Positions 23,314 to 46,334 of a stretch of DNA of 64,000 nt are shown in pieces (position 1 is the first letter of the stretch; every line of letters starts with the position of its first letter). The position numbers and the translations under genes were made by a program. Origin of the DNA: an uncultured Mailhella sp. (GTDB taxonomy: Bacteria; Desulfobacterota; Desulfovibrionia; Desulfovibrionales; Desulfovibrionaceae); assembly GCA_944324085.1 (NCBI GenBank), contig CALUUX010000035.1, positions 1-64,000 on the forward strand, in the 5' to 3' direction. The notes beneath the pieces were generated by a model. The model saw nothing but the letters and a program-made list of their open reading frames with translations, did not search any database and was not told where the DNA came from.

Positions 23314-24819
23314 TCATTTTTTCTCGTGCTTTTTGTCGTCGACGTGTTTCAGGGCCTTTTTCAAGGCGTCGCGATAGGTGCGAAGCACGGTCAGCCGCGC
23401 GTATTTTTTGTCTTCCGCGGCGATGATGTGCCAGGGAGCGTATTCCGTGCTGGTTCTCAGGAACATTTCGTCGGCGGCGCGCACGTAGTCGGGCCATTTT
23501 TCGCGGTTGCGCCAGTCGTCGGGCGTGATTTTATACTGTTTCCACGGGGTTTCTTCTCTTTCCTTGAAGCGGCGGAGCTGCTCGTCGGGAGAAAGATGCA
23601 GCCAGAATTTGACCAGCACGTTACCGTGATTCGTCAGTTCTTCCTCAAAGAGATTGATCTCGGCGTAGGCGCGGCTCCAGTCTTCTCTGGGGGTCAGTTT
23701 TTCCACGCGTTCCACAAGCACCCGGCCGTACCAGGACCTGTCGTACACGGTGACGAAACCCGCGCGGGGAACGTGACGCCAGAACCGCCACAGGTAATGA
23801 TGCGCGAGTTCCTCGTCGGTGGGGACGCCTATGGGAATGGCCCGACTGATGCGGGCGTCGATGCCCGCCATGAGGCGGCGGATGCTTCCGCCCTTGCCCG
23901 CGGCGTCCCATCCTTCAAAGACAAGCGTGCTGGAGATTCCCTTGCGGTAGGCGTGATAGGTGAGCTCGCGCAGTTCCGCCTGAAGATCGTCCAGGTCTTT
24001 TTTATAGGTTTCGGGATCGGCCTTGACGGTCAGATCTATGGCGTCCAGCGTGGATATCACGTTTTCCCGTTCGGCGGGCGCGGCTTCGGCGAGGCGGGCT
24101 TTTTTGGCGTCCTGTTCGGCGACGGCGCGTTCCACGGCGGCGATGAGGGTTTTGGCCACGGCGAGGTCGCGGTAGTTGGCGTCGGCGGCGTCCACGATGG
24201 TCCAGGGCGCGAAGGATCTGTCGGTAAGCGTAATGGCCTTGGCCGCCGCGCTGGCCAGACCGTCATAATTTTCGGCGGACTTTTTGTCGTATGGCGTGAA
24301 GTGATGGATTTCCTTGTGAGCCAGTCGTTTTTTTAGCCGGGAATCATGTTCCTTCTTGTCCAGATGCAACCATATTTTAACGATGGCCATGCCCGACGCC
24401 GCCAGGCTGTTTTCCAGGCCGCGGTAGTGATGCATGTGGGAGGTGAAGGCCATTTCGTCCATGTCTCCCGCGCAGAATTTGCGTATGGCCTGCCCGTACC
24501 AGCCGCCGAAGAACACGCCGACGGAGCCCGCCGCGGGCAGAAGCCGCCAGTAACGCCAGTCGAGAGGCCGGGCGCGTTCTTCGTCGGTTTCCATCCAGAA
24601 CACATGGTTGTGGACATGTTTGTTGTCCATCCATTCCGAGAGAAGATTGACCACGGCTCCGCGGCCGGAACAGTCGACGCCGGCCACGATGATGAGCAGG
24701 GGAATCTTGCGGTTGATGCATTGCCGCTGCGCTTCAAAGAGCTTCATGCGCAGTTCCGGCGCCTGTTCCCGAAAATCCTTGTCGCTGCAGCGTCTGCCCA
24801 GGACGACGGTTTCAAACAT
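23314..24819 (-). CDS. Two-domain PPK2-family polyphosphate:nucleotide phosphotransferase
   Basis: 501 residues made of two PPK2 domains. The C-terminal domain (about 290-495) has the full P-loop GWDAAGKGG and the lid segment DRSWYGRVLVERVE, so it should be active. The N-terminal domain (about 30-260) has GVDCSGRGA, with Arg in place of the P-loop Lys, and lacks the DRSWYGR motif, so it is probably structural. This is the class II arrangement known from polyphosphate:AMP phosphotransferases, which make ADP from AMP and polyphosphate. It is a single-gene unit with its own terminator, divergent from the gene at 25036. Cytoplasmic. Confidence 0.85.
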   Translation of the reverse strand: MFETVVLGRRCSDKDFREQAPELRMKLFEAQRQCINRKIPLLIIVAGVDCSGRGAVVNLLSEWMDNKHVHNHVFWMETDEERARPLDWRYWRLLPAAGSVGVFFGGWYGQAIRKFCAGDMDEMAFTSHMHHYRGLENSLAASGMAIVKIWLHLDKKEHDSRLKKRLAHKEIHHFTPYDKKSAENYDGLASAAAKAITLTDRSFAPWTIVDAADANYRDLAVAKTLIAAVERAVAEQDAKKARLAEAAPAERENVISTLDAIDLTVKADPETYKKDLDDLQAELRELTYHAYRKGISSTLVFEGWDAAGKGGSIRRLMAGIDARISRAIPIGVPTDEELAHHYLWRFWRHVPRAGFVTVYDRSWYGRVLVERVEKLTPREDWSRAYAEINLFEEELTNHGNVLVKFWLHLSPDEQLRRFKEREETPWKQYKITPDDWRNREKWPDYVRAADEMFLRTSTEYAPWHIIAAEDKKYARLTVLRTYRDALKKALKHVDDKKHEKK

Positions 24820-25035: not shown

Positions 25036-27708
25036 ATGACCGCAGTTACCGTTCCAGAACATTCCCGGCCCCTTCTGGAAGCCATTTCGGCGGGGCGTTC
25101 TTTTGAGGTGGACAGTCATATTTTTGTCGCGGAAAGCGACTGGCTCATGGCCATAGGGTATCCATTGGAAGGAGAGTTCTCCGTGCGGCGTTTCGAGGCC
25201 GCGCTGGAAGAGGCCGTCCGCCGCGTGAAGCCCGCGGACTGTTTCGCCATCGCTCCGGACATGCCGGAACGGCTGAAGGAATACGTGCAGGACAGGGACG
25301 TTTATTACACGCTGGAGGCGTCGTCGCCCGTGCCGTCCAAGTTGCGGGGGCCGGTGCGCCATGCGCGCGAACGCCTTTCGGTGGACGAAACCCGCGAGTT
25401 CACGTCGGAGCACCGGAGACTTTGGGCGGAGTTTCTGGGGCGCATTCCCTTGCCGCCGCGCATACGCCAGCTCTATTCCGGCACGGCCGCCGCGCTTGGC
25501 GGCGGGGCCGACCTGCGTCTTCTCAACGCCTGGGACGCCGAAGGACAGCTGGCCGCCTGTCTGCTTCTGGACTATTCCCTGCCGCGTCATGTGAGCTATG
25601 TGCTCGGCGCGCACTCCAAGACGCACTACGTTCCCCACGCGCCTGATTTGCTTTTCGCCGAAATGCTGGAACGCGCCCGCGCCGAAGGCAAGGAGAGCGT
25701 GCTTCTCGGCCTTGGCGTGAACGAGGGCATCACCCGTTTCAAGAAGAAATGGGGCGGCGTGGAAAGCGCGCCGTATCAGCTGGCCGTGTGGCAGCCCGAA
25801 GCGGGCTTCGGAGGGAAGGGCGGTTTCTTCGACATGGCGGCGTATCTGGCCATAACCATAGGCAATTCTTCCGCTAACTATGAAATGTCGCGCTGGAAGT
25901 TTTTCGACTCTCTTCCTGAACAGCGACCTTGCGCCATGCTTTGGCGGCTGGACAAGAACGGGCGCACGTCATGGATAGGCGGTTCCGCGCATTTCTTCTG
26001 CTACTCCTTCGAGCATTCCCTGCGCCGCCTTTTTGAACAGGTGGACACCGTGCTGCTGGAGGGGCCCATTGACTCCGACAGCATGGATGAAGTGGCGCGC
26101 ATTGGCCGTTCGCCGGAGCCCGACGCGCCCCGCGTGGCCGAATTTCTTTCCGAGGAGGACGTTCGTCGTCTGGAACGCATGGTCTATGGGCCGGAAGGGT
26201 TCTGGGCGAGGCTTGCGGGAGTGCAGCGGGAAAGGAGCGTCGACGTGCGGCAGGTGCTGGCGGAAAGCCGTCAGTGGTACGCGTTTTTTTCGTTGTGGAC
26301 GGCGTATCTCGAGCGCAACGGCTGGACGAATTCCGTGGATCTCGAGGTTTGGAATCTCGCTCTGGACATGGGCAAGTCGGTCATGGGCATGGAAAGTCTG
26401 GCCGAGCAGATCGCTTCTCTGGAATCCGCGCCCATGCCGCGCATCGTGAAGTTCCTGAAGGAATGTTCCTTCTGGCCGACGCTCATGAAGAGCAATCGTT
26501 CGCGGTATCTTGCGGGCGATCTCATGGGCATGATGGGCACGAGCGCGGAATTTCCCACCCGCACGGGCACCATCATCAGCGTGCGCGATCAGCGTTTCCG
26601 CGAGCGCATGCGACCCTATATCGAGCGCGGCGGAACGGCCGTGTTCGTGGGGTCCGCGCACATGATCAATCTTCGCTACATGCTCGCGGAGGACGGCTTT
26701 ACCGTGACGCGGGTGCTGCCGACATGGAAGCATAGGCTTGCCGCCTGGATACGGCGCGACGATTCCGTGGTTTTGCCCGGCAATCCCGACGCTCCGACCT
26801 GGGAGAAGGCTCCGGAAAACGTGCGTTCCTCCGCGCTGCGGAACGAAGCCCCGGCTTCGGGCGTTCCCCGTCCCTCGGCCTCGAGCGGGCCCGCGTCCGG
26901 CCGCGCGTTGGCCGATCTGGGGGCGCGGGCCGTCGTGCCGGAGCAGATACCCGCTTACGTTCGGGCGGTGTCCGGTCGAAAGCTGTTTTCCTGCGAAGGG
27001 TTCGCCGCATGGGTCGCGGACGACAGCTGCACGCTGGTGGCTTTTCCCGCGCAGGACGAGCTTTCCGCCTGCGGCTTAGGCACGCCAGCCTACGCGGAGA
27101 GGCTGGAGCGGGCCGTGGCCTGCGCGCTCGCCATGCCGAATCTCCGTCGGATCACCGTGCTCGCTCCGGCGGTTCCCGCCGCGGCTCCCGACCGGGCTGT
27201 GGTGGAACGTGACGCGTGGTGGTGCGTTTCTCTGCCGCACGAGCCGGGACAGAAGCTGCGTAACATGCTGCGCCGCGCTCAGCGCGAGGCCCGCGTGGTT
27301 GTGGAGGATTGGGGGCCGGAGCATGACGCGCTGGTGGATCATTACCTTAAAGTGCGCACGCTGGCTCCGGGCACGCGGCATATTTTCGGCAGAGTGGGGG
27401 ATTACGTGAGAGGCTCCTCCGACGCCGTACTCTTTTCCGCGCGCGACGCGTCGGGCAAGCTGCTGGCCATGGCCGTGGGCGATTACAGCGCGTTGAGCAC
27501 GGCGTTTTACATGTTTGCCTTCCGACGCGACGATTGCCCCCCCGGCGTGAGCGACGCCTTGCTGAAGGCTCTGGCCGATGAGGCCGTGCGCCGGGGACAG
27601 AGCGTGCTGAATCTCGGTCTGGGCATTGATGAGGGCATCGCCTTCTTTAAAAAGAAGTGGGGAGCCTTTGAGGCCATGCCCCATCTGGAAACGAGCTGGA
27701 CCGTCTAG
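25036..27708 (+). CDS. GNAT-TraB/GumN-GNAT three-domain fusion protein
   Basis: About 890 residues. The first third and the last quarter each end in the same signature, LGLGVNEGITRFKKKWG (about 224-240) and LGLGIDEGIAFFKKKWG (near 860-880), typical of FemX-like GNAT folds; the two units look like an internal duplication. Between them a TraB/GumN domain starts with WIGGSAHF (about 313-320), has a Glu at 342 (LLEGP) and closes with the VFVGSAHMINLRYMLAEDGF element of that family. TraB/GumN proteins are metal-dependent hydrolase-like; their bacterial substrates are mostly unknown. A Pro/Ser/Ala-rich linker precedes the last GNAT unit. ATG 25036 has GAGGAG 8 nt upstream; the longer frame to 24346 is an antisense shadow of the PPK2 gene. 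A radical SAM gene follows after 13 bp. Function not known. Confidence 0.75.
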   Translation: MTAVTVPEHSRPLLEAISAGRSFEVDSHIFVAESDWLMAIGYPLEGEFSVRRFEAALEEAVRRVKPADCFAIAPDMPERLKEYVQDRDVYYTLEASSPVPSKLRGPVRHARERLSVDETREFTSEHRRLWAEFLGRIPLPPRIRQLYSGTAAALGGGADLRLLNAWDAEGQLAACLLLDYSLPRHVSYVLGAHSKTHYVPHAPDLLFAEMLERARAEGKESVLLGLGVNEGITRFKKKWGGVESAPYQLAVWQPEAGFGGKGGFFDMAAYLAITIGNSSANYEMSRWKFFDSLPEQRPCAMLWRLDKNGRTSWIGGSAHFFCYSFEHSLRRLFEQVDTVLLEGPIDSDSMDEVARIGRSPEPDAPRVAEFLSEEDVRRLERMVYGPEGFWARLAGVQRERSVDVRQVLAESRQWYAFFSLWTAYLERNGWTNSVDLEVWNLALDMGKSVMGMESLAEQIASLESAPMPRIVKFLKECSFWPTLMKSNRSRYLAGDLMGMMGTSAEFPTRTGTIISVRDQRFRERMRPYIERGGTAVFVGSAHMINLRYMLAEDGFTVTRVLPTWKHRLAAWIRRDDSVVLPGNPDAPTWEKAPENVRSSALRNEAPASGVPRPSASSGPASGRALADLGARAVVPEQIPAYVRAVSGRKLFSCEGFAAWVADDSCTLVAFPAQDELSACGLGTPAYAERLERAVACALAMPNLRRITVLAPAVPAAAPDRAVVERDAWWCVSLPHEPGQKLRNMLRRAQREARVVVEDWGPEHDALVDHYLKVRTLAPGTRHIFGRVGDYVRGSSDAVLFSARDASGKLLAMAVGDYSALSTAFYMFAFRRDDCPPGVSDALLKALADEAVRRGQSVLNLGLGIDEGIAFFKKKWGAFEAMPHLETSWTV

Positions 27709-27721
27709 CGGGAGGATTCGC

Positions 27722-28768
27722 ATGGCGTCCGATGTGGAAAAACTGTTTTCTCAGTTCCGCGCTCCCGGCGTCTGGCGGGAGATTCGGGAACTTTTTCAGC
27801 CGCGCGAACGGGAATGTCTGCAGGTGGAGGTGACGTCCTGCTGCATGGGAAAATGCGTCTACTGCCCGCACACCACGCGAGCCGACGTGTGGAAGAGCCG
27901 GCACATGAAGCCGGAAACCTTCGCCGCGCTCTGGCCGGCCATGCTTGGAACCGCGCGCGTGCATCTTCAGGGATGGGGCGAGCCTTTTTTGAATCCGTAT
28001 TTCATGGATTTCGTCTCGCTTGCGCGAAAGGCCGGATGCGCGGTTTCCACCACGACGTGCGGCTTGCGCATGGATGAGGATCTGGCGGAACGCGTGGTGT
28101 CGAGCGGCATGGACATAGTGGCGTTTTCGCTGACCGGAACCGACGAGCAAAGCAACGGCGCGCGGGCCGGCGTGCCGTTTTCCCGCGTGGAGAAGGCCGT
28201 GCGCATGCTTCAGAAGGCGCGTCGGGAGAAGAACGCCGTGCATCTGGAGATTCATCTGGCGTATCTCATGCTCGCCTCCAACGTGGAGGCGGTGCGCGCG
28301 CTGCCTGAACTTATGGAAGACTGGGGCGTTCATGCGGCGGTCATCAGCACCATGGACTACATTCCCTCGCCGGATATGGCGAAGGAGGCATTTGCGCCTC
28401 ACGAGCGGGATAAAATAGAGGCCGCCCGCGTCGTGCTGGAAGAAGTGGGCGCGAAGGTGCGCGCGTCCGGCCGCGATTTCTACGCGTCTCTTCCGGCGCC
28501 GACTCCGGCTCCCTGCTGTCGGGAGCGGGCGCACAGAACCATGTATGTGGACGCCGACGGTCAGATTTCTCCCTGCGTGTATCTCAACGTTCCTCTCGAC
28601 GCGCCTCAACCCGACCGAGCGGTGTTCGGCAACGTGCTGGAGGAAAACCCCGAACGGATATGGGCCAGGCCGGACTACGCGGCGTTTCGGGAGGCGGTGC
28701 AGACGGAGCGTCCGCCGTCTTCCTGCGCGTCCTGCGCCAAGCGATTCGAGGCCCCTTGCGCGCAGTAG
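27722..28768 (+). CDS. Radical SAM protein with SPASM-like C-terminus
   Basis: 348 residues. The radical SAM cluster motif is CMGKCVYC (C41, C45, C48). The C-terminal part has the SPASM-like pattern: CC at about 269, a GQISPCVYLN element, FGN, and a final C-A-S-C-x6-C set, which would bind one or two auxiliary Fe-S clusters. Such proteins modify peptides or act as dehydrogenases, but no precursor peptide gene is obvious. GGGAGG precedes ATG 27722 and only 13 bp separate it from the GNAT-TraB-GNAT gene, so the two are cotranscribed. The substrate cannot be identified; it could modify the product handled by the GNAT domains. Confidence 0.8.
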   Translation: MASDVEKLFSQFRAPGVWREIRELFQPRERECLQVEVTSCCMGKCVYCPHTTRADVWKSRHMKPETFAALWPAMLGTARVHLQGWGEPFLNPYFMDFVSLARKAGCAVSTTTCGLRMDEDLAERVVSSGMDIVAFSLTGTDEQSNGARAGVPFSRVEKAVRMLQKARREKNAVHLEIHLAYLMLASNVEAVRALPELMEDWGVHAAVISTMDYIPSPDMAKEAFAPHERDKIEAARVVLEEVGAKVRASGRDFYASLPAPTPAPCCRERAHRTMYVDADGQISPCVYLNVPLDAPQPDRAVFGNVLEENPERIWARPDYAAFREAVQTERPPSSCASCAKRFEAPCAQ

Positions 28769-28870
28769 CCGCAGACGTATGTTCAACACGCGCCGCATTC
28801 GTTTTTTCGCCCGCGCGACAGACGCGAAACGGAAGCGGCTCGTTGAAGCGTTTATCATGCTGGAGGACGC

Positions 28871-29359
28871 ATGTTGATACGGAATGCGACCATGGCCGAC
28901 CTTCCGGCCATCGCCGATGTGGAAAAACGCTGCTTTCCCCCTCAGGAAGCGGCGACGGAAGAGGAATTCAGAGAACGTCTGGCCGCGTACGCCGATTGTT
29001 TCTGGCTGTTGTTCGAGGACGGACGCCTGGTGTCCTTCATTGACGGCATGGCCACGGACGAGCCCGACTTGCGGGACGAGATGTACGCCGACGCCTCTTT
29101 GCACAGAAAGGACGGTCATTGGCAGATGATTTTCGGTCTCAACACGCTGCCGGAATATCGCAGGCGCGGATACGCCGCGCGCCTTGTCGAACGGCTTGCG
29201 GAAGAAGCGAAAAGGCGGGGAAAAATCGGCGTGGTGCTTACCTGTAAGGAAAGGCTTGTTCCGTATTACGAGTCGCTCGGTTTCAAGTATGAAGGCGCGT
29301 CTTCTTCCACGCACGGCGACGCGGTCTGGCATCAGATGCGCATGATCTTTCCGGCTTGA
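28871..29359 (+). CDS. GNAT-family N-acetyltransferase
   Basis: 162 residues with the acetyl-CoA binding motif YRRRGYAARLVERL (about 96-109) and the usual GNAT beta-alpha layout ending in YYESLGFKYEG. It resembles the arylalkylamine/serotonin acetyltransferase-like branch rather than RimI. It lies about 100 bp after the radical SAM gene on the same strand and may belong to the same unit. GGAGG is 6 nt upstream of ATG 28871. The acceptor amine is unknown. A terminator follows at 29382. Confidence 0.85.
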   Translation: MLIRNATMADLPAIADVEKRCFPPQEAATEEEFRERLAAYADCFWLLFEDGRLVSFIDGMATDEPDLRDEMYADASLHRKDGHWQMIFGLNTLPEYRRRGYAARLVERLAEEAKRRGKIGVVLTCKERLVPYYESLGFKYEGASSSTHGDAVWHQMRMIFPA

Positions 29360-34553: not shown

Positions 34554-34969
34554 CATCGGGCATGGGCGGATTTTTTATGGAAGCGTCGTCGTTTTTTACG
34601 GAAGTTGCTTTGCGAGGGGAGAGTGAGGCGGTCCGTTTGCGGCGCGGAAGAGGAGCCGTAATTCGTCGAAAAAAGGAGGACGGCTGAAAAATTTTTAATT
34701 TTTTTTTGACTGCAATTTTGTATTGTTTATAACTTACTGAAATAAAAAATAAAAAAAAACCTCCATGCTTGCTCTTTCAGGCACATGCAGGGAAGGAAAA
34801 AATTATCCGTAAATAACATGATAACTATGCGTAATATTTTATTTAAATTATTTTTTTCTTAAATGTGCCGGAAAAAAATAAACTTGTTGAACTTTTTTTT
34901 AATAATATTATTTTGTGTTCCCGTTGCGAGCAATGCAACGGAATTTATCTTTTTAACAGGGGAGTTTAT
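34554..34969. other. AT-rich intergenic region ahead of the yeiH-like gene
   Basis: About 415 bp, very A/T-rich from 34690 on, with no gene. It must carry the promoter of the following permease gene. A short imperfect hairpin (CCTCCATGC...GCATGCAGGG type) occurs around 34763-34795; I cannot assign a role. Confidence 0.45.
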
Positions 34970-36409
34970 ATGTCAACGAAAGTCGCTTTCAACGAGGATA
35001 AGGTAGCCCTTCTCTCCGGGCTCTTTATCTTCGTGCTGGCCCTGGGCAAACTGATCGGCCTGGATCCTCTGGGCTGGACCCTCAAGGTCGGCATGTGGGT
35101 GAGCAATCCCTTTGATGGCTTGTCCTCCGCGACCAAGGGACTCATGCCCGGCTGGGCTGCGCTTCTTGTCACGTACGTTTTCATCACCGCGGTTCTTTCC
35201 GTGGGTGTGAAGCTCATGAAGGGCAACGTGAAGCGTTTCATCGGTTCCTTCACGCTGGTCTTCTTCATCGCCATTGCCTGCTACACCGTGGGCGCCAACG
35301 CGTATATCGCCGCCAACCCCACCGAACTCACCAAGATGGGCATTCCGTGGGCTCTCGGCCTCAGCACGGAAGCCGGCCTTATCTGCGCTCTGATTGCCGG
35401 TATTCTTATCGGTAACTTCGCTCCCGGATTTACCGACAGCGTGCGCGAAGCCTGCCGTCCTGAACTGTTCGTGAAAATCGCCATCGTTATTCTTGGTGCC
35501 GAACTGGGCGTGAAGGCAGCTGACGCCGCCGGTTTCGCCGGTCATGTCATTTTCCGAGGCCTCTGCGCCATTGTTGAAGCCTACCTGCTGTACTGGGCCG
35601 TTGTGTACTATGTCGCCCGTAAGTACTTCAAGTTCAACAAGGAATGGGCTGCTCCCCTGGCTTCCGGCATTTCCATCTGCGGTGTGTCCGCCGCTATTGC
35701 CACGGGCGGTGCCATCCGCGCCAGGCCTGTGGTTCCGATCATGGTGTCTTCGCTCGTCGTGGTGTTCACCTGCATTGAAATGCTGGTTCTTCCTTTCCTC
35801 GCTCAGCATTTCCTGTACACCGAACCCATGGTTGCCGGCGGTTGGATGGGCCTTGCCGTTAAGTCCGACGGCGGCGCCATCGCTTCCGGCGCCATCACTG
35901 AAGCTCTGATCCTCGCGAAGGTCGCCGGCCTCGGCACTCAGTATGAACCCGGCTGGATCGTGATGGTCACCACCACCGTCAAGATCTTCATTGATATGTT
36001 CATCGGCGTGTGGGCTCTGGTGCTCGCGTACGTGTGGACCGCCAAGTTCGACAAGACCAACGGCAAGCGCACCATGACCTGGAGCGACGTGATGGATCGT
36101 TTCCCCCGTTTCGTTCTTGGTTATCTTGGCACGTTCCTGATCCTGCTGATCATGTGCCTCACCTCGCCTGATCTGCACAAGATGGGCGGCGCCATGTCCG
36201 GCGCCATCAACGGCTTCCGCACCATCTTCTTCCTCCTCACCTTCTTCAGCATCGGCATGGTTTCCAACTTCCGCAAGCTGAAGGAAGAAGGCATTGGCCG
36301 TCTTGCCGTTGTGTACATTGTCTGCCTGTTTGGCTTCATCATCTGGGTCGGTCTGTTCATCTCCTATGCTTTCTTCCATGGCATGACCCCGCCTGTGATC
36401 GGTGCCTAG
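34970..36409 (+). CDS. yeiH: YeiH/UPF0324-family permease (putative sulfate/sulfite exporter)
   Basis: About 479 residues with some 11-13 membrane segments. The family signature appears in ILIGNFAPGF, VILGAELGVKAAD and SGISICGVSAAIATGGAI; members are annotated as putative sulfate exporters, and relatives accompany taurine and sulfonate degradation genes, where sulfite or sulfate must leave the cell. It is longer than typical YeiH (about 350 residues), with extra helices at the N-terminus. ATG 34970 is preceded by AGGGGAG. A small membrane protein gene follows 24 bp later. The C-S-lyase operon lies only 0.6 kb further on, on the opposite strand. The substrate remains to be shown. Confidence 0.75.
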   Translation: MSTKVAFNEDKVALLSGLFIFVLALGKLIGLDPLGWTLKVGMWVSNPFDGLSSATKGLMPGWAALLVTYVFITAVLSVGVKLMKGNVKRFIGSFTLVFFIAIACYTVGANAYIAANPTELTKMGIPWALGLSTEAGLICALIAGILIGNFAPGFTDSVREACRPELFVKIAIVILGAELGVKAADAAGFAGHVIFRGLCAIVEAYLLYWAVVYYVARKYFKFNKEWAAPLASGISICGVSAAIATGGAIRARPVVPIMVSSLVVVFTCIEMLVLPFLAQHFLYTEPMVAGGWMGLAVKSDGGAIASGAITEALILAKVAGLGTQYEPGWIVMVTTTVKIFIDMFIGVWALVLAYVWTAKFDKTNGKRTMTWSDVMDRFPRFVLGYLGTFLILLIMCLTSPDLHKMGGAMSGAINGFRTIFFLLTFFSIGMVSNFRKLKEEGIGRLAVVYIVCLFGFIIWVGLFISYAFFHGMTPPVIGA

Positions 36410-38987: not shown

Positions 38988-39992
38988 TTATTTGCCGAGG
39001 CGTTCCTTGACAATCTTCAGGAAGTCCTGATCCACGATGGCGGCGTACTTGTCATAAACGGGCTGGGCGGCGGCGCGCCATTCCTTCATTTCGTCGGCGG
39101 TCGGCGTATGGCAGAGGATGCCTTCCTTTTCCATCGTGGCGACGCTGTCGTCCATGATGGAGACCCACTGCTTGTTGGCTTCCTGGAGAGCCTTGTCCAG
39201 ACCGGCGTCCACGATGGGCTTGGCCCAGTCGGGCAGACTTTCATAGAAGGTTTTGTTCATGCTGGCGATCATGAAGAAGCCGTTGTAGGGAACGAAGATG
39301 AGCGATTCCAGATTTTCATAGAACTTGGAAATCAGGATCGTGGAGTAGTTCAGGCCGATGCCGTCGATGGTCTTGAGCTGAAGGGCGGTATAGCATTCGG
39401 CGAAGGAAATCGTGGCGGGCGACGCGCCCATGGCGGAAATGACGTCACGTTCAATGCGGGAAGCGGTGGAACGGAGCTTTTTACCCTTGATGTCCTTCAT
39501 GGTCTGGCATTTGCTGTTCATGCCCAGGGCTCTGGGAGAATAGGGAGAAATCAGCACGATCTTGACGCCGAGCTTTTCGAATTCATCTTCCAGACGCTGA
39601 TAGACGGGGCCGTCGAGCTTTCCGTCTTTGTTGTAGAAGAGCTTCATGTTTTCGTCGGGCTTTTCGCAGAGATAGGGAAGTTCAAGAACTTCCAGCTCAG
39701 GAACGACGGAGCTCAGGTTGGAACTGGACCCGAAAGCCAGCTGAATGATGTTCATCTGCGCTTTTTCCAGCGTTTCCAGGCATCCGCCCATGGAAGAGTT
39801 CTCATAAATGACGACTTCAATTCTTCCGTTACTTGCTTTCTCCACGTATTCCTTGAACGCGGCGAAGGGGACGGATTGCTCGCAGCCGGCGCCCGTATTG
39901 TGAGCCGCTTTTATGGTAATTTCCGCGGCAGAGGCTGTTCCGCAAAAGAGAAGTCCCATCAAGACGGCCATGGTAGAAAGTCTTCTGAACAT
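38988..39992 (-). CDS. dctP: TRAP substrate-binding protein (DctP family)
   Basis: 334 residues with a Sec signal peptide cleaved after about residue 22 (TASA|AE). The DctP fold is indicated by IKGKKLRSTASRIERD, with the anion-binding Arg present at residue 174, and by ISFAECYTALQLKTIDGIG. It delivers an organic acid or sulfonate to the DctQ-DctM permease encoded just upstream. It should set the specificity of the operon. Read after dctM with a 57-bp gap and GGAGG before ATG 39992. Confidence 0.9.
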   Translation of the reverse strand: MFRRLSTMAVLMGLLFCGTASAAEITIKAAHNTGAGCEQSVPFAAFKEYVEKASNGRIEVVIYENSSMGGCLETLEKAQMNIIQLAFGSSSNLSSVVPELEVLELPYLCEKPDENMKLFYNKDGKLDGPVYQRLEDEFEKLGVKIVLISPYSPRALGMNSKCQTMKDIKGKKLRSTASRIERDVISAMGASPATISFAECYTALQLKTIDGIGLNYSTILISKFYENLESLIFVPYNGFFMIASMNKTFYESLPDWAKPIVDAGLDKALQEANKQWVSIMDDSVATMEKEGILCHTPTADEMKEWRAAAQPVYDKYAAIVDQDFLKIVKERLGK

Positions 39993-40049
39993 AACATCCT
40001 CCTAACTAAGGGTAAAAGTTTTACAACTCACTCGTTATGCGCGGCTGGT

Positions 40050-41333
40050 CTATTGGAAGTACAGGTCGGGCAGCCAGAGCGTCAGCTGCGGGAATACGAT
40101 AAGAAGCGTCAGCGTGATGAGCATGCTGATCACGAAGGGGATGGACGCGGCAAAGATGCGTTCGCTGGGCACGTCGGAAATGGTGTTGGCCACAAAGAGG
40201 TTCACTCCCAGCGGCGGAGTGATGAAGCCCACCGAAAGGTTGACGATCATGATGATGCCGAAGTGGACGGGGTCGAAGCCGAGCTGAACGACCAGCGGCA
40301 GAAGAATGGGCGTGAGCAGCACGATGGCGGCCACGGTTTCCATGATCATGCCCACGAACAGCAGGAACAGGTTGATCAGCAGCATGAGCAGGATGGGATT
40401 CGACGTGAGAGACGTGAGAGCCTTGGCCATTTTCATGGGGATACCCAGCAGGGAAATGAGCTGACCGAAGAACGTGGCCATGCCCACGATGAGCAGCAGG
40501 GGAGCCACGGTCATGGCGGCGGCCCGGAACAGGCTGGGAATTTCTCTCCAGGTGAATTCCTTATAGATGAACAGGCCGACGATCAGCGCGTAGAGGCTGG
40601 CCACGGCGGCGGATTCCGTGGGAGTGAAGATGCCGCCGTAGATGCCGCCCATGATGATGACCGGCACAAGCAGGGCCCATTTAGCCTGGTTGAACGCGCG
40701 GAGCAGGGAACCGGCGGAACGCTTGGTCGGGTTGCCCCTCCAGCCGTGCTTCTTGGAGATGAAGTAGGCGGGAATCATGAGAGCTATGGCCACCAGCGCG
40801 CCGGGGATGATGCCGGCCAGGAAGAGGCGTCCGATAGAGACGTTGCCGGCCACGCCATAGATGACCATGGGGTTGCTGGGAGGAATGATGACCGAAATGC
40901 AGCCCGCGCAGGCGCAGACGGCGGCCGCGAAGTCGAGGCGGTATTTCTGGGTATGCATGGCCGGCACCATGAGTGTGCCGATGGCCGCCACCGTCGCCGG
41001 CGCGGAGCCACTGAGGTCGGCGAAGAACACGGAGGCAAGAATGGTGCTGAGGGCGTAGCCGCCGGGGAGCGCGCCCAGCAGCTCATCGGCCAGAATAAGC
41101 AGATGCTTGGCGATGCCGCCGCGGGCCATGATCTGGCCGGCCAGAACGAAGAAGGGAACGGCCAGCAGGGCAAAGCTGTCTATGCCGCTGAAGGAAGCCA
41201 TGGTGGCGAGGCCGAGAGGCATGGCTCCCGTGATGAGAAGATACGATATGGCGGTCAGACCGATGGCGATAGCGATCGGCACTCGGAAAAAGAGAAAAAA
41301 AGCGATACTGAGCAGAAGAAGAAAGCCAGTCAT
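40050..41333 (-). CDS. dctM: TRAP transporter large permease subunit (DctM)
   Basis: 427 residues with about 12 membrane segments and the DctM motifs LAVPFFVLAGQIM, SAPATVAAIGTLMVPAM and TPPLGVNLFVANTI. It forms the sodium-coupled channel part of the TRAP carrier, together with the separate DctQ gene upstream and DctP downstream. The length is normal for DctM. AGG lies upstream of ATG 41333. Confidence 0.95.
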   Translation of the reverse strand: MTGFLLLLSIAFFLFFRVPIAIAIGLTAISYLLITGAMPLGLATMASFSGIDSFALLAVPFFVLAGQIMARGGIAKHLLILADELLGALPGGYALSTILASVFFADLSGSAPATVAAIGTLMVPAMHTQKYRLDFAAAVCACAGCISVIIPPSNPMVIYGVAGNVSIGRLFLAGIIPGALVAIALMIPAYFISKKHGWRGNPTKRSAGSLLRAFNQAKWALLVPVIIMGGIYGGIFTPTESAAVASLYALIVGLFIYKEFTWREIPSLFRAAAMTVAPLLLIVGMATFFGQLISLLGIPMKMAKALTSLTSNPILLMLLINLFLLFVGMIMETVAAIVLLTPILLPLVVQLGFDPVHFGIIMIVNLSVGFITPPLGVNLFVANTISDVPSERIFAASIPFVISMLITLTLLIVFPQLTLWLPDLYFQ

Positions 41334-41375
41334 AGGAGACTCCCGGAACTAAGGTCCGTGCGGTGGTTATGGGGA

Positions 41376-41891
41376 TCAGTCCAGAGACACGCTGTAGCTG
41401 TGGATGACACCGGTCTTCTTGTAGCGGAGCCAGTCGACGATGATGGCCTGAATGAGCCGGATCATGCCGAGGCCGAAGCCGATGCCCACGAGGGACGTGA
41501 ACCACCACATGGGAAGCCGCATGGCGGAAGTCTTTTTATGCACCATGATCTGCTGCGAAACGAGTTCGTAGCAGCTGACCACCATGAGCAGGCAGAACAC
41601 GAAAAACGCCGTGTAGCTTATCATGGTGATGATGCATTGTACTTTCTGCGACGTGTGAGACGGAATGACGTCGCAGATGATATGTCTTTTGTGCCGAATG
41701 GCGTACGGAACGCCGAGGAAGACGATGGCGACAAGGAGGTACTTGGCTATTTCTTCCGAATAGAGCGAAGAGGCGTTAAGGAAGTATCGACGGACGACTT
41801 CAAAGTTCACGTCTGCAAGAAGTATGATGAAAAGAATAATTTCTATGGTGTCCTCAAAGTGACTCTCCAACCAAAGCAGTTTTTCTTTCAT
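41376..41891 (-). CDS. dctQ: TRAP transporter small permease subunit (DctQ)
   Basis: 171 residues, four membrane segments, with the DctQ features DVNFEVVRRYF, SEEIAKYLLVAIVFLGVPYAIR and HKRHIICDV. It pairs with DctM. The gene follows the amidohydrolase-like gene with a 21-bp gap and precedes dctM by 42 bp. Confidence 0.9.
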   Translation of the reverse strand: MKEKLLWLESHFEDTIEIILFIILLADVNFEVVRRYFLNASSLYSEEIAKYLLVAIVFLGVPYAIRHKRHIICDVIPSHTSQKVQCIITMISYTAFFVFCLLMVVSCYELVSQQIMVHKKTSAMRLPMWWFTSLVGIGFGLGMIRLIQAIIVDWLRYKKTGVIHSYSVSLD

Positions 41892-42819: not shown

Positions 42820-43764
42820 TCAGGAAACGAGCCTTTCTCCCAGGCGTGATTCCGCCAGGCGTCTGAGTTTTTCCATCAGCATTTTATTGAGACTGACGTC
42901 TCCCATCGGATAGGGTCTTCCGAGCTGGGTGTACTTTTGCGTGCCGAGTCGATGGTACGCCAGCATTTCATAGGAGATGTGTCGTCCGGCCAGGGATTCT
43001 ATGAAATCACAGATATCCGCCACCGTTTTTTCCGAATCGTTGAATCCCGGTATGATCGGCGTTCGTATCAGGATGGGCAGGTCTTTGAATTCGGAAGAAA
43101 TTCTTTTGATGTTGCTGAGAATAGGGGCATTGTCCACGCCGGTATTCGCCTTATGCAGCGAAGGATCGAGGTGTTTGACGTCAATGATGAGCGTGTCAAG
43201 ATGCGAGGCTGCTTCCCGCAGAACTTCATAAGGCGCGTACGCGCAGGTTTCCATGGCCGTGTTCAGATAGCGTTTTTCCGCTTCTCTGAGGATGGCCATG
43301 AGAAATTCAGGCTGGGCGCAGGGTTCGCCGCCGGAAACCGTCAGGCCTCCGGAACTGCGCTGATAGAAGACGGCGTCTTTTTCTATTTCCTTGAGGGCCT
43401 CTTCCACGGTGATGCGGCGTCCGAAAATCTTCAGCGCGTCGGCGTGGCATCGCTGTGAGCAGGCGGCGTGACAGGCGGCGAGATCGCAACGTTCTCTCGC
43501 TATTTCCGGCAGCCCGCCGCTTACAGGAAACGAAATCGCGCCCTGCGGGCACACGTCTTCGCAAAAGCCGCATTTTTCTTTGGTCAGGCATCGGGTCGCG
43601 TTGAACGCCAGTTCCGCCTGGAAGGATTGGGATTCGGGATTGCTGCACCAGCGGCAGCGCAGCGGACAGCCCTTGAAAAACAGAATGGTCCGTATGCCGG
43701 GTCCGTCGTGAACGCTGTACTTCTGGATGTTGAAAATTTGTCCTGTGACAAGCCTGTCCTGCAT
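42820..43764 (-). CDS. Glycyl-radical enzyme activating enzyme (radical SAM)
   Basis: 314 residues. CPLRCRWC (C33, C37, C40) binds the SAM cluster; a ferredoxin-like insert follows with two cysteine groups (CLTKEKCGFCEDVCP and CDLAACHAACSQRC), as in most activases outside the PFL type; SGGEP at about 158-162 is the SAM-binding GGE motif. It makes the glycyl radical on the enzyme encoded 50 bp upstream. The hairpin at 43780-43808 lies right before its ribosome binding site. TRAP genes follow on the same strand. Confidence 0.95.
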   Translation of the reverse strand: MQDRLVTGQIFNIQKYSVHDGPGIRTILFFKGCPLRCRWCSNPESQSFQAELAFNATRCLTKEKCGFCEDVCPQGAISFPVSGGLPEIARERCDLAACHAACSQRCHADALKIFGRRITVEEALKEIEKDAVFYQRSSGGLTVSGGEPCAQPEFLMAILREAEKRYLNTAMETCAYAPYEVLREAASHLDTLIIDVKHLDPSLHKANTGVDNAPILSNIKRISSEFKDLPILIRTPIIPGFNDSEKTVADICDFIESLAGRHISYEMLAYHRLGTQKYTQLGRPYPMGDVSLNKMLMEKLRRLAESRLGERLVS

Positions 43765-43779
43765 GACCGTAGCTCCTGA

Positions 43780-43808
43780 GGGGGATCTTCCCTGAGGGAA
43801 GATCCCCC
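43780..43808 (-). promoter_or_regulatory. Perfect 13-bp hairpin between glycyl-radical enzyme and activase genes
   Basis: GGGGGATCTTCCC-TGA-GGGAAGATCCCCC. It begins 6 bp after the enzyme's stop codon and ends just before the AGGAG of the activase. There is no T-run, so it may protect the upstream mRNA or reduce activase translation, keeping enzyme in excess. Confidence 0.75.
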
Positions 43809-43814
43809 ATGCCG

Positions 43815-46334
43815 TTATATTTCCGAATGTTCAGTTCTGGCGATCAGATCATTCTGAAGGTCAGGCGTCAGATCGACAAAGTAGGCGCTGTACCCGGCCA
43901 CGCGAACAATAAGACTCCGATATTTTTTAGGGTCTTTTTGCGCGGCGAGCAGAGTGCTGCGATTGATGACGTTGAACTGCACATGCCAGAGCTTGAGGTC
44001 GATGAAGGAACGGATGAAGTCCACCAGACGGCGGGTGCCCTGTTTACCTTCCACGGCCTTGGGGCTGAACTTGATGTTCAGCATGCGGGCGGCGCGGTTT
44101 ATCTTGTCTCTGTTCTTGGAGGCGTCGTTGCTGAGCAGCACGCTGGTGGGACCGTTGACGTCGGCTCCGTGGGACGCCGACGTGCCGTCGGAAAGCGGCG
44201 TCCATGCCTTTCTGCCGTTGGCCGACGCGCTGACCACGCGGCCGAAGGGCACATGCGCCGTCACGGGTACGTAGCGGGTGTCAATGTACACGCCCAGTTC
44301 TTTGCCGTATTTTTCAAAGAAATCCATGGTGTGCCGTTCGACGGCGCGACCGATGGAGTCGGCGTAAGGATCGTTGTTGCCGTAGCAGGGGCAGTGCTGG
44401 AGAAGTTCCCTGATGTCTTCATAGCCTTCGAAGTCGGCGTCGAGCGCGGCCAGAAGCTGATCCATGGTGATGGATTTGTCGTCGTACACGGCCTTTTTGA
44501 TGGCGGCGAGACTGTCGATGAGCGTGCCGTAACCGATGTAGTCCATCAGGCCGCTTTCGTAACCTTCGGGAATGTGTTCGGTATGCAGATCAAGGCAGTA
44601 TTTCATGCAGAGATCGTGCAGGCTCGAGCTCATGGGCACGGAGAAATACTTCTGACGCATTTTGTTGGTGATGTACTGAATGTCGATGGCCACGCGCAGA
44701 TAATAGGTCTGCTGGGTCAGGAAGGCGTTCCAGAACTCGTCCCAGGTTTTCAGATTTCTGGGATCGCCGGTTTCCACGCCCAGGAGACGATCTCCGAATT
44801 TCTTGATGCGGCCGTTGTTCAGAACGAGTTCCAGCTCGGCGGGCATGTTGATGTACATGCCGCCGGACGTGTACGTGTCACGGTTGGGCATGCGGGATTC
44901 CGTGCAGCCGCTGGCCGTATAGTCATAGGCCTGATCCAGCGGCGCGCCCTTGGCGGTCATGATGGGGATGATTTCCTCGTCGTTGAGCAGCTTGGGATAG
45001 CCCGTGCCGAATTTGATGGTTTCAGCGATTTCCGACAGGAACCGTTCCGGGGAACGCGCGTGCACGCGGGCCGCCAGATCGGGATAATGCAGCGGGAATT
45101 CTCTTTTGGACTTGAGGAAAATGTAGGAAAGATCGTTGGTGGCGTCTTCGCCTTCGGGCGTGAGGCCTCCGATGGTTACGGCTTCCCAGTGCGCGTAGCC
45201 CTGGTTGAACGAGGTGCCCTGGGCGGAAATGTACATTTCGATGAACTGGGCCATGCCGCACCAGACGCATTCCAGCAGTTCCATGGCCTGCGCGTCCGTA
45301 AGAACGCCCTTATCTTTGTCCTGCTTGAACAGAGGATAGAGATACTGATCCATGCGGCCGTTGGAAATCGTGGTGCCGGTGCGCTGTTCCAGACGCGAGA
45401 ACATCTGGACGAAATACTGGCTTTGAACGGCCTGATGGAAGGTCTTGGCCGGATAGGCGGGAACCTGACGGCAGTTTTCCGCGATGAGGAGCAGTTCCTT
45501 CTTGCGCACGGGATCCTGTTCCGCGGCGGCCATTTCCTCCGCCTTTTCGGCGTGGCGGCGGGCCCAGAGCATGATGGCGTCGGACACGATGACCACGGCT
45601 TCCAGGAAGGGACGCTTTTCGTGATAGTCGGCGGGACTGTTGGGGTCGAGAGCCGCAAGGCGTTCCTTGGCTTCGCGCTGAATGTCCAGGAAGCCGCGCT
45701 TGATGACCTTGCCGTAATCGTGAACCCACTGGAGCGACGAACGCCAGGAGGCCGTTTCATTGACCAGATAGCGGGGCGTCGTTCCCTCGGCGTCGATGAA
45801 CAGGATGTCGTGCAGTTCTTTCGGCACCACCTTGTTGAAATTTTCGTGATAGGTTTTTCCCTTCCAGTACGGGCCAATTTCTTCTTTGATGACCTTCATG
45901 CTTTCCGGGGAAATGGAGGCGGTTCCGCCTTCGCGTTCTCCCAGCTTGGTCAGGAAGGTTTCATAGAAGTCGCCTTCGATTTCGGGATACATGATGCCGT
46001 AACGGCCTTTGCATCCGAGGCGGCCGACGATGAGCTGATAGTCGTCGATGTAGACGGTGATATTGCTTGCGATGTTGTACAGAGCCTTCGCCCAGCGCAG
46101 AATAAGCGGTTCGCCTTCCGTCTGCTTCATGCTGCGGGTGAAATAAAGAGCTCGTTCCACGTCAATGACGGGTTCCATGCCGTCGAAAGTTTGAACGATG
46201 TTATAAACGCGCGGATGCTCTTTTTGAAAAACGTCTTCACCGATGCCGAAAATGCGTTTTTCCTGCCCGGAAAGAGATATTTCTTCATGACAATCGCAGC
46301 CGGAAAAACATGATGCGGCGTTCGAGTCAAACAT
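43815..46334 (-). CDS. Glycyl-radical enzyme, probable sulfonate C-S lyase (IslA/HpsG type)
   Basis: 839 residues. The radical Gly lies in RVAGYSAYF (Gly814) and the thiyl Cys is C477 in SGCTES, with Glu479 two residues on. From memory, isethionate lyase uses R189, Q193, W374, C468, E470, R678 and F682; a constant offset of 9 places R198, Q202, W383, C477, E479 and R687 here, a match at six of seven, while F682 corresponds to V691. This strongly suggests a sulfonate substrate and sulfite release, with a pocket somewhat larger than for isethionate; 2,3-dihydroxypropanesulfonate (HpsG) is one option, a new sulfonate another. GGAGAG precedes ATG 46334. No microcompartment or aldehyde dehydrogenase genes accompany it. 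Cofactor-free cytoplasmic enzyme; it is oxygen-sensitive when activated. Confidence 0.8.
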   Translation of the reverse strand: MFDSNAASCFSGCDCHEEISLSGQEKRIFGIGEDVFQKEHPRVYNIVQTFDGMEPVIDVERALYFTRSMKQTEGEPLILRWAKALYNIASNITVYIDDYQLIVGRLGCKGRYGIMYPEIEGDFYETFLTKLGEREGGTASISPESMKVIKEEIGPYWKGKTYHENFNKVVPKELHDILFIDAEGTTPRYLVNETASWRSSLQWVHDYGKVIKRGFLDIQREAKERLAALDPNSPADYHEKRPFLEAVVIVSDAIMLWARRHAEKAEEMAAAEQDPVRKKELLLIAENCRQVPAYPAKTFHQAVQSQYFVQMFSRLEQRTGTTISNGRMDQYLYPLFKQDKDKGVLTDAQAMELLECVWCGMAQFIEMYISAQGTSFNQGYAHWEAVTIGGLTPEGEDATNDLSYIFLKSKREFPLHYPDLAARVHARSPERFLSEIAETIKFGTGYPKLLNDEEIIPIMTAKGAPLDQAYDYTASGCTESRMPNRDTYTSGGMYINMPAELELVLNNGRIKKFGDRLLGVETGDPRNLKTWDEFWNAFLTQQTYYLRVAIDIQYITNKMRQKYFSVPMSSSLHDLCMKYCLDLHTEHIPEGYESGLMDYIGYGTLIDSLAAIKKAVYDDKSITMDQLLAALDADFEGYEDIRELLQHCPCYGNNDPYADSIGRAVERHTMDFFEKYGKELGVYIDTRYVPVTAHVPFGRVVSASANGRKAWTPLSDGTSASHGADVNGPTSVLLSNDASKNRDKINRAARMLNIKFSPKAVEGKQGTRRLVDFIRSFIDLKLWHVQFNVINRSTLLAAQKDPKKYRSLIVRVAGYSAYFVDLTPDLQNDLIARTEHSEI

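Follow-up and report, generated by a model that had tools for sequence, protein, structure and literature searches.

The locus at positions 25036-29359 (+) of the window, by which we mean the whole 64,000-nt stretch of contig CALUUX010000035.1 analyzed here, raises the question of which pathway would use a hydrolase domain held between two GNAT units and followed by a radical SAM (rSAM) enzyme. The host is a gut sulfur bacterium, and its genome is a Mailhella-type Desulfovibrionaceae bin of 2.3 Mb whose closest records are uncultured Mailhella at 85-89% identity. An initial annotation, made from the sequence alone, described a GNAT-TraB-GNAT fusion of 890 aa, an rSAM gene 13 bp behind it, and a third GNAT, and placed them in a peptide or small-molecule modification route. 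All three genes were found at these coordinates and with this spacing, and the modification route is supported as a reading. Comparison across genomes showed that the Mailhella fusion is a late state of an older conserved four-gene unit, composed of GNAT-A, TraB, GNAT-B, and rSAM. We tentatively favor, at somewhat less than even confidence, a tRNA-dependent pathway that adds amino acids to a small molecule, peptide, or protein and modifies it by radical chemistry, and that is tied to dissimilatory sulfite metabolism, a link that the initial annotation had missed.

Gene order and fusions of the four-part unit

Homologues were gathered from whole genomes and named contigs, and their arrangements were typed with GNAT, TraB, and rSAM profiles. 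In L096, L097, L099-L101, L103, and L107-L109, the parts are unfused and follow one another as GNAT-A, TraB, GNAT-B, and rSAM, with junctions mostly overlapping or short. Most Desulfobacterota with the unit (e.g., L046, L050, L111, and L115; also Desulfobulbus alkaliphilus DSM 24258, L058, for GNAT-A-TraB and GNAT-B) carry a fusion of GNAT-A and TraB followed by GNAT-B and then rSAM, the Mailhella lineage carries the fusion of all three followed by rSAM, and GNAT-B is fused to rSAM in L093 and L119. The order is altered in L094 and L095, where a GNAT precedes GNAT-A, and the parts are dispersed yet retained in some genomes (G084, G235, G035, G026, and G303). The rSAM gene is retained in every genome with the unit except two with broken contigs (G198 and G233), and is a fragment in G453. 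Within the phylum Desulfobacterota, the unit was present in 30 of 395 genomes (approximately 8%). A Chloroflexota bin (L105/L067) has GNAT-A, TraB, and GNAT-B as separate genes and an rSAM fragment at another contig end; a survey of Chloroflexota matched 2 of 201 genomes, of which one had only a GNAT. Because fusions arose repeatedly and independently, and because dispersed parts are still retained, the parts appear to serve one pathway, and we are highly confident that the four form one functional unit.

The fused protein in the window (25036..27708, +, ATG at 25036) consists of GNAT-A (residues 1-257; 25036..25806), linker region 1 (residues 258-300; 25807..25935), a TraB/PrgY/GumN (TIKI) hydrolase domain (residues 301-559; 25936..26712), linker region 2 (residues 560-615; 26713..26880), and GNAT-B (residues 616-890; 26881..27705), all on the same strand. 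Its AlphaFold2 (AF2) model had three confident domains and two loose linkers (257-288 and 585-608), with a mean pLDDT of 88, a pTM of 0.46, and a confidence below 50 at residues 257-288. Fused full-length homologues were found in Mailhella relatives at 62-89% identity. The ratio of nonsynonymous to synonymous substitution rates (dN/dS) against eight Mailhella relatives was 0.07-0.14 for the fusion, lowest in TraB (0.03-0.12), and 0.12-0.16 for rSAM; linker region 2 had the highest dN/dS within the fusion in most comparisons. These homologues and the low dN/dS of the fusion indicate that the open reading frame is not a chance reading and that the fusion is not restricted to one strain. The fusion with its duplicated GNAT is therefore real, but it is only the late Mailhella form of a unit whose GNAT duplication is ancient.

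Gene 1 of split relatives stops within linker region 2. The in-frame TGA seen there was considered as a possible selenocysteine codon and rejected; it simply terminates gene 1, at a position that varies among the relatives (query 562-583). A search for plasmid or phage carriage of the locus gave no match.

The third GNAT (162 aa; 28871..29359, +) begins 102 bp after the rSAM gene and is an ordinary enzyme of the acetyl-CoA type, with a Pfam Acetyltransf_1 match and an RRRGYA acetyl-CoA loop. The initial annotation was correct in listing it, but since it accompanies the unit in L032-L035 and L038 and is missing in L036, L037, and L040, we regard it as a local neighbor outside the conserved unit.

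Two other arrangements were noted. At L110:5453-7429 (+), a 658-aa open frame runs from GNAT-A through the first half of TraB directly into the last two thirds of rSAM, without the second half of TraB and GNAT-B. Either a deletion that preserved the frame or a misassembly would account for it. A SagB/nitroreductase partner was considered for eight loci that clustered, but was rejected, as different nitroreductases lay at varying distances.

The genomic link to sulfite metabolism

Among the 395 genomes of the phylum, 30 had the unit, 189 had dsrA, and 65 had an N-extended YeiH-family protein (PF03601; hereafter YeiH-ext). YeiH is the main sulfite-stress resistance factor in Salmonella (PMC12880088). 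By Fisher tests, which ignore the relatedness of genomes, dsrA was present in 27 of 30 genomes with the unit compared to 162 of 365 without it (p=6e-7), and YeiH-ext in 25 of 30 compared to 40 of 365 (p=2e-17). The association with YeiH-ext persisted among dsrA-positive genomes (24/27 with the unit and 36/162 without; p=3e-11). YeiH-ext itself occurred with dsrA in 60 of 65 genomes, and all 11 families with the unit fall within the 23 families with YeiH-ext.

The genes also lie close together. In 9 of the 25 genomes having both, approximately 5 kb or less separated YeiH-ext from a unit gene. The rSAM gene and YeiH-ext had dsrA or dsrAB beside them in L141 and L146, dsrA or dsrAB was also close to a unit gene and YeiH-ext in L108, and an rSAM fragment, YeiH, and dsrAB were neighbors in the Chloroflexota bin (L143). 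The sulfite link of the unit is thus statistical and positional. It points to an unrecognized pathway, whether biosynthetic or modifying, among sulfate and sulfite reducers, including gut bacteria that produce hydrogen sulfide, and two recent surveys of sulfur metabolism make no mention of the unit genes.

Two further kinds of neighbor recurred around these genes. A small membrane protein of approximately 80 aa with no family match lies beside YeiH-ext at L118:9656-9904 (-), L137:6004-6246 (+), and L157:6893-7126 (-), the last in a genome without the unit. NF038143 (HYxxLL) proteins, often in 2-3 copies, recur beside rSAM, GNAT-B, or YeiH-ext (L107:5136-6348, L113, L120, L121, L122, L130, L132, and L137).

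In the window itself, a glycyl radical enzyme at 42820-46334 (-) was identified as the (2S)-3-sulfopropanediol dehydratase HpsG (NF048011, 1364 bits against a cut-off of 1000), with its activase just under the cut-off (408 and 430 bits, respectively) and TRAP transporter genes accompanying the HpsG genes at 38988-41891 (-). The host probably obtains sulfite from the sulfonate 2,3-dihydroxypropane-1-sulfonate (DHPS). Another YeiH-like transporter, different from YeiH-ext and with a weak TIGR00698 match (30 bits), lies at 34967-36406 (+), approximately 6 kb downstream of the unit and between it and the sulfonate genes. Just upstream, and divergent from the unit, is a 501-aa protein (23314-24819, -) that by eye is a two-domain PPK2-type polyphosphate kinase.

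Residues, folds, and predicted activities

Pfam matched Acetyltransf_6 at fusion residues 104-229 (35.7 bits against a cut-off of 22) and LPG_synthase_C at residues 737-864 under its cut-off (19.4 and 27.5 bits, respectively). The weak C-terminal call was settled by the homology of this unit to the N-terminal one (approximately 26% identity) and by the AF2 model of residues 616-890, which matched Sbb17/Sba18, FemX, and MprF at Z 17-19 (VIA) and has a double-GNAT fold, for which approximately 260-330 residues are typical. TraB is thus flanked by FemX-like GNAT duplicates, as had been proposed. The best 50 structural matches listed for the fusion all covered the GNAT units only; among these, the first was an uncharacterized Bacteroides protein (2hqy), followed by enzymes that depend on aminoacyl-tRNA, namely the peptide synthases Sba18/Sbb17, FemX, and MprF. 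A tree was built from 134 GNAT units, labeled A or B by position relative to TraB; a branch supported at 100/100 separated all 70 GNAT-A from GNAT-B and the lone copies. Because GNAT-A forms one clade at this support, we take the duplication to be an ancient one, with GNAT-A and GNAT-B as separate orthologous groups.

The acetyl-CoA loop pattern [QR]xxGx[GA] was missing in 70 of 70 GNAT-A and 52 of 55 GNAT-B sequences, and E8, D88, H126, Y188, D204, F235, K236, K238, and W239 were invariant across both groups. Each unit has an F-K dipeptide (F235-K236 at 25738-25743, +, and F871-K872 at 27646-27651, +) which, compared by sequence, is the same dipeptide as F328-K329 of DhpH-C. In GNAT transferases that use aminoacyl-tRNA, FemX Lys305 and DhpH-C Asn325, Phe328, and Lys329 have been given as important (review PMC12945691). 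Taken together, the FemX/MprF fold, the mostly missing acetyl-CoA loop, and the kept FK lysine point to aminoacyl-tRNA-dependent transfer, as judged from sequence and models. GNAT-A and GNAT-B would then form amide (or ester) bonds between amino acids taken from aminoacyl-tRNA and an acceptor, which could be a small scaffold, a peptide, or a protein.

What the acceptor would be is where other explanations come in. The MprF and FemX fold matches, and an LPG_synthase_C match over the cut-off in one GNAT-B (29.6 and 27.5 bits, respectively), would also suit envelope modification, in which the GNATs aminoacylate a lipid or peptidoglycan precursor and the sulfite link is indirect. However, the unit has no membrane domain and is confined to the small share of phylum genomes given above, mostly dsrA-bearing. 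Lipid aminoacylation is also not known to involve an rSAM partner, which counts against this explanation, and we consider it improbable.

Alternatively, the GNATs could be aminoacyl-tRNA-protein transferases, like leucyl- and arginyl-transferases, that tag a protein of, for example, the sulfite pathway, with rSAM modifying the same protein and TraB removing or trimming the tag. A GNAT-A homologue weakly matched an arginyltransferase model (E 5e-4), no precursor peptide or scaffold gene was found, and dsrAB and YeiH-ext are close by in some genomes, all of which would suit a protein acceptor. However, the arginyltransferase score is far under its cut-off (19.6 and 170 bits, respectively) and no conserved target protein adjoins the unit in all lineages, so that protein tagging seems unlikely.

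The middle domain matched TraB_PrgY_gumN (PF01963) at residues 301-559 with 105 bits against a cut-off of 26.8, and the separate TraB proteins of L096 and L105 scored 102 and 87 bits. Both GxxH motifs (G316/H319 at 25981-25992, +, and G539/H542 at 26650-26661, +) and E342 (26059-26061, +) were kept in 73 of 73 TraB sequences. In TIKI hydrolases, a His/Glu pair activates water on ester or peptide bonds (PMC6254334). The domain is therefore a predicted hydrolase with intact catalytic residues, in agreement with the initial annotation, and within the favored tRNA-dependent pathway it may trim the product or set it free by hydrolyzing a bond of the amide, ester, or peptide type.

The rSAM protein (348 aa; 27722..28768, +) has Radical_SAM and SPASM Pfam matches, a CX3CX2C motif (27842-27865, +), and four auxiliary cysteines (C266, C285, C335, and C338) that were invariant in 35 sequences. 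The auxiliary-cluster cysteines expected of it are thus present, and the 13-bp gap fits the proposed cotranscription with the fusion; the seven cysteines with which a full SPASM domain binds two auxiliary clusters were not all found in these sequences, and the C-terminal domain is best called SPASM/Twitch-like, its cysteine pattern predicting two clusters in the protein. Its AF2 model (pLDDT 94.8) was nearest, by Foldseek, to BlsE, a CteB-type sactisynthase, SkfB, SuiB, anSME, DesII, and PqqE. An enzyme of this type could modify the scaffold or product. For an anti-phage role as prokaryotic viperin, PADLOC gave only weak partial pVip matches on the rSAM core (37 bits) and none on the fusion.

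By sequence, the nearest named models were TIGR04317 (tungsten cofactor oxidoreductase maturase) and TIGR04311 (putative metalloenzyme maturase), which would be expected if the unit builds or installs a cofactor of sulfur respiration, and G035 has a related rSAM gene with an aldehyde ferredoxin oxidoreductase as its neighbor (L137 8222-9958). However, the scores (118 bits in the window; 160 and 146 bits in L096) are far under the cut-offs of 380 and 400, so membership in either family was rejected; no such oxidoreductase adjoins the unit in the window or recurs as its neighbor elsewhere, and cofactor maturation alone would not explain two FemX-like enzymes and a TraB domain. We find cofactor or metalloenzyme maturation distinctly unlikely. 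Related rSAM genes in genomes where the unit is absent or dispersed, that of L137 (region L137:6968-9961) among them, were also seen beside YeiH-ext (L132 and L137) and beside a gene that by eye is MoaD-like (L134).

The fold neighbors SkfB, SuiB, and CteB-type sactisynthase, together with the peptide cleavage known for the TraB relatives PrgY and TIKI, would fit a ribosomally synthesized and post-translationally modified peptide (RiPP) pathway, in which rSAM would act on a short precursor that the GNATs lengthen and TraB cleaves. The initial annotation had suggested looking for such a precursor in relatives; no conserved small open reading frame was found between or beside the unit genes, although one encoded elsewhere would escape this search. 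Nor did any small gene recur in distant loci except that of the 80-aa membrane protein after YeiH-ext, which also occurs without the unit (L157). A RiPP pathway is, in our view, quite improbable.

Weighing the proposed pathway against known systems

Several findings weigh against a tRNA-dependent pathway tied to sulfite. Acetyl-CoA-using double GNATs (mycothiol synthase and VipF) were also among the structural matches, at lower Z; the double-GNAT fold alone is no proof of tRNA use, and the GNAT units gave no match to FemX by sequence profile. The Fisher p values overstate independence because the genomes are related, and within its own family the test of the unit against YeiH-ext gave p=0.03. 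Only approximately 14% of dsrA-bearing genomes carry the unit, which is therefore not needed for sulfite reduction. The unit of Mailhella itself has neither YeiH-ext nor dsr as a neighbor. The bin of the window lacks dsrA, although 12 of 19 genomes of the genus have it, and its YeiH-ext is on another contig (C18). Our analysis also yielded no substrate, product, or precursor.

With these points considered, the product of the favored tRNA-dependent pathway might be, for example, a factor used in sulfite metabolism or protecting against sulfite. The more specific proposal, an ancient and dedicated tRNA-dependent pathway of sulfite respirers yielding a radical-modified aminoacylated metabolite or cofactor that is used with YeiH-type transport and DsrAB, we regard as rather unlikely. 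If true, such a molecule would be a factor of a new type for dissimilatory sulfur metabolism.

All four enzyme families are known. Their conserved, repeatedly fused combination is undescribed in the literature searched, which covered few subscription journals and held no description of TraB with GNAT and rSAM; likewise, no curated family in Pfam, NCBIfam, or PADLOC joins the parts, in keeping with the earlier failure to match a named pathway. GNAT-A and GNAT-B share with FemX, the MprF C-domain, DhpH-C, PacB, VlmA, and Sbb17/Sba18 the double-GNAT fold, the lack of the acetyl-CoA loop (in most), and perhaps, going by sequence, the conserved FK lysine, and FemABX-type pathways, like the four-part unit, have two or more transferase copies. 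However, GNAT-A and GNAT-B are too far in sequence for FemX profile matches and are permanently paired with TraB and rSAM, and in contrast to MprF no architecture of the unit has a membrane flippase domain. The TraB domain belongs to the same Pfam family as the TraB/PrgY/GumN (TIKI/Ere-like) hydrolases and has their two GxxH motifs and Glu, but here it is fused to or in an operon with GNAT units and has no membrane anchor that we could see. The neighboring YeiH-ext is of the same family (PF03601) as YeiH/Cons_hypoth698 transporters but carries an N-terminal extension of approximately 170-220 residues. Like the SPASM/Twitch enzymes (TIGR04317/TIGR04311, PqqE, BlsE, BtrN, and RiPP maturases), the rSAM protein combines CX3CX2C with a C-terminal auxiliary-cluster domain, closest by sequence to TIGR04317/TIGR04311 and by fold to BlsE and RiPP maturases; it differs from these named families in falling under every curated cut-off, in its four invariant auxiliary cysteines, and in its partners.

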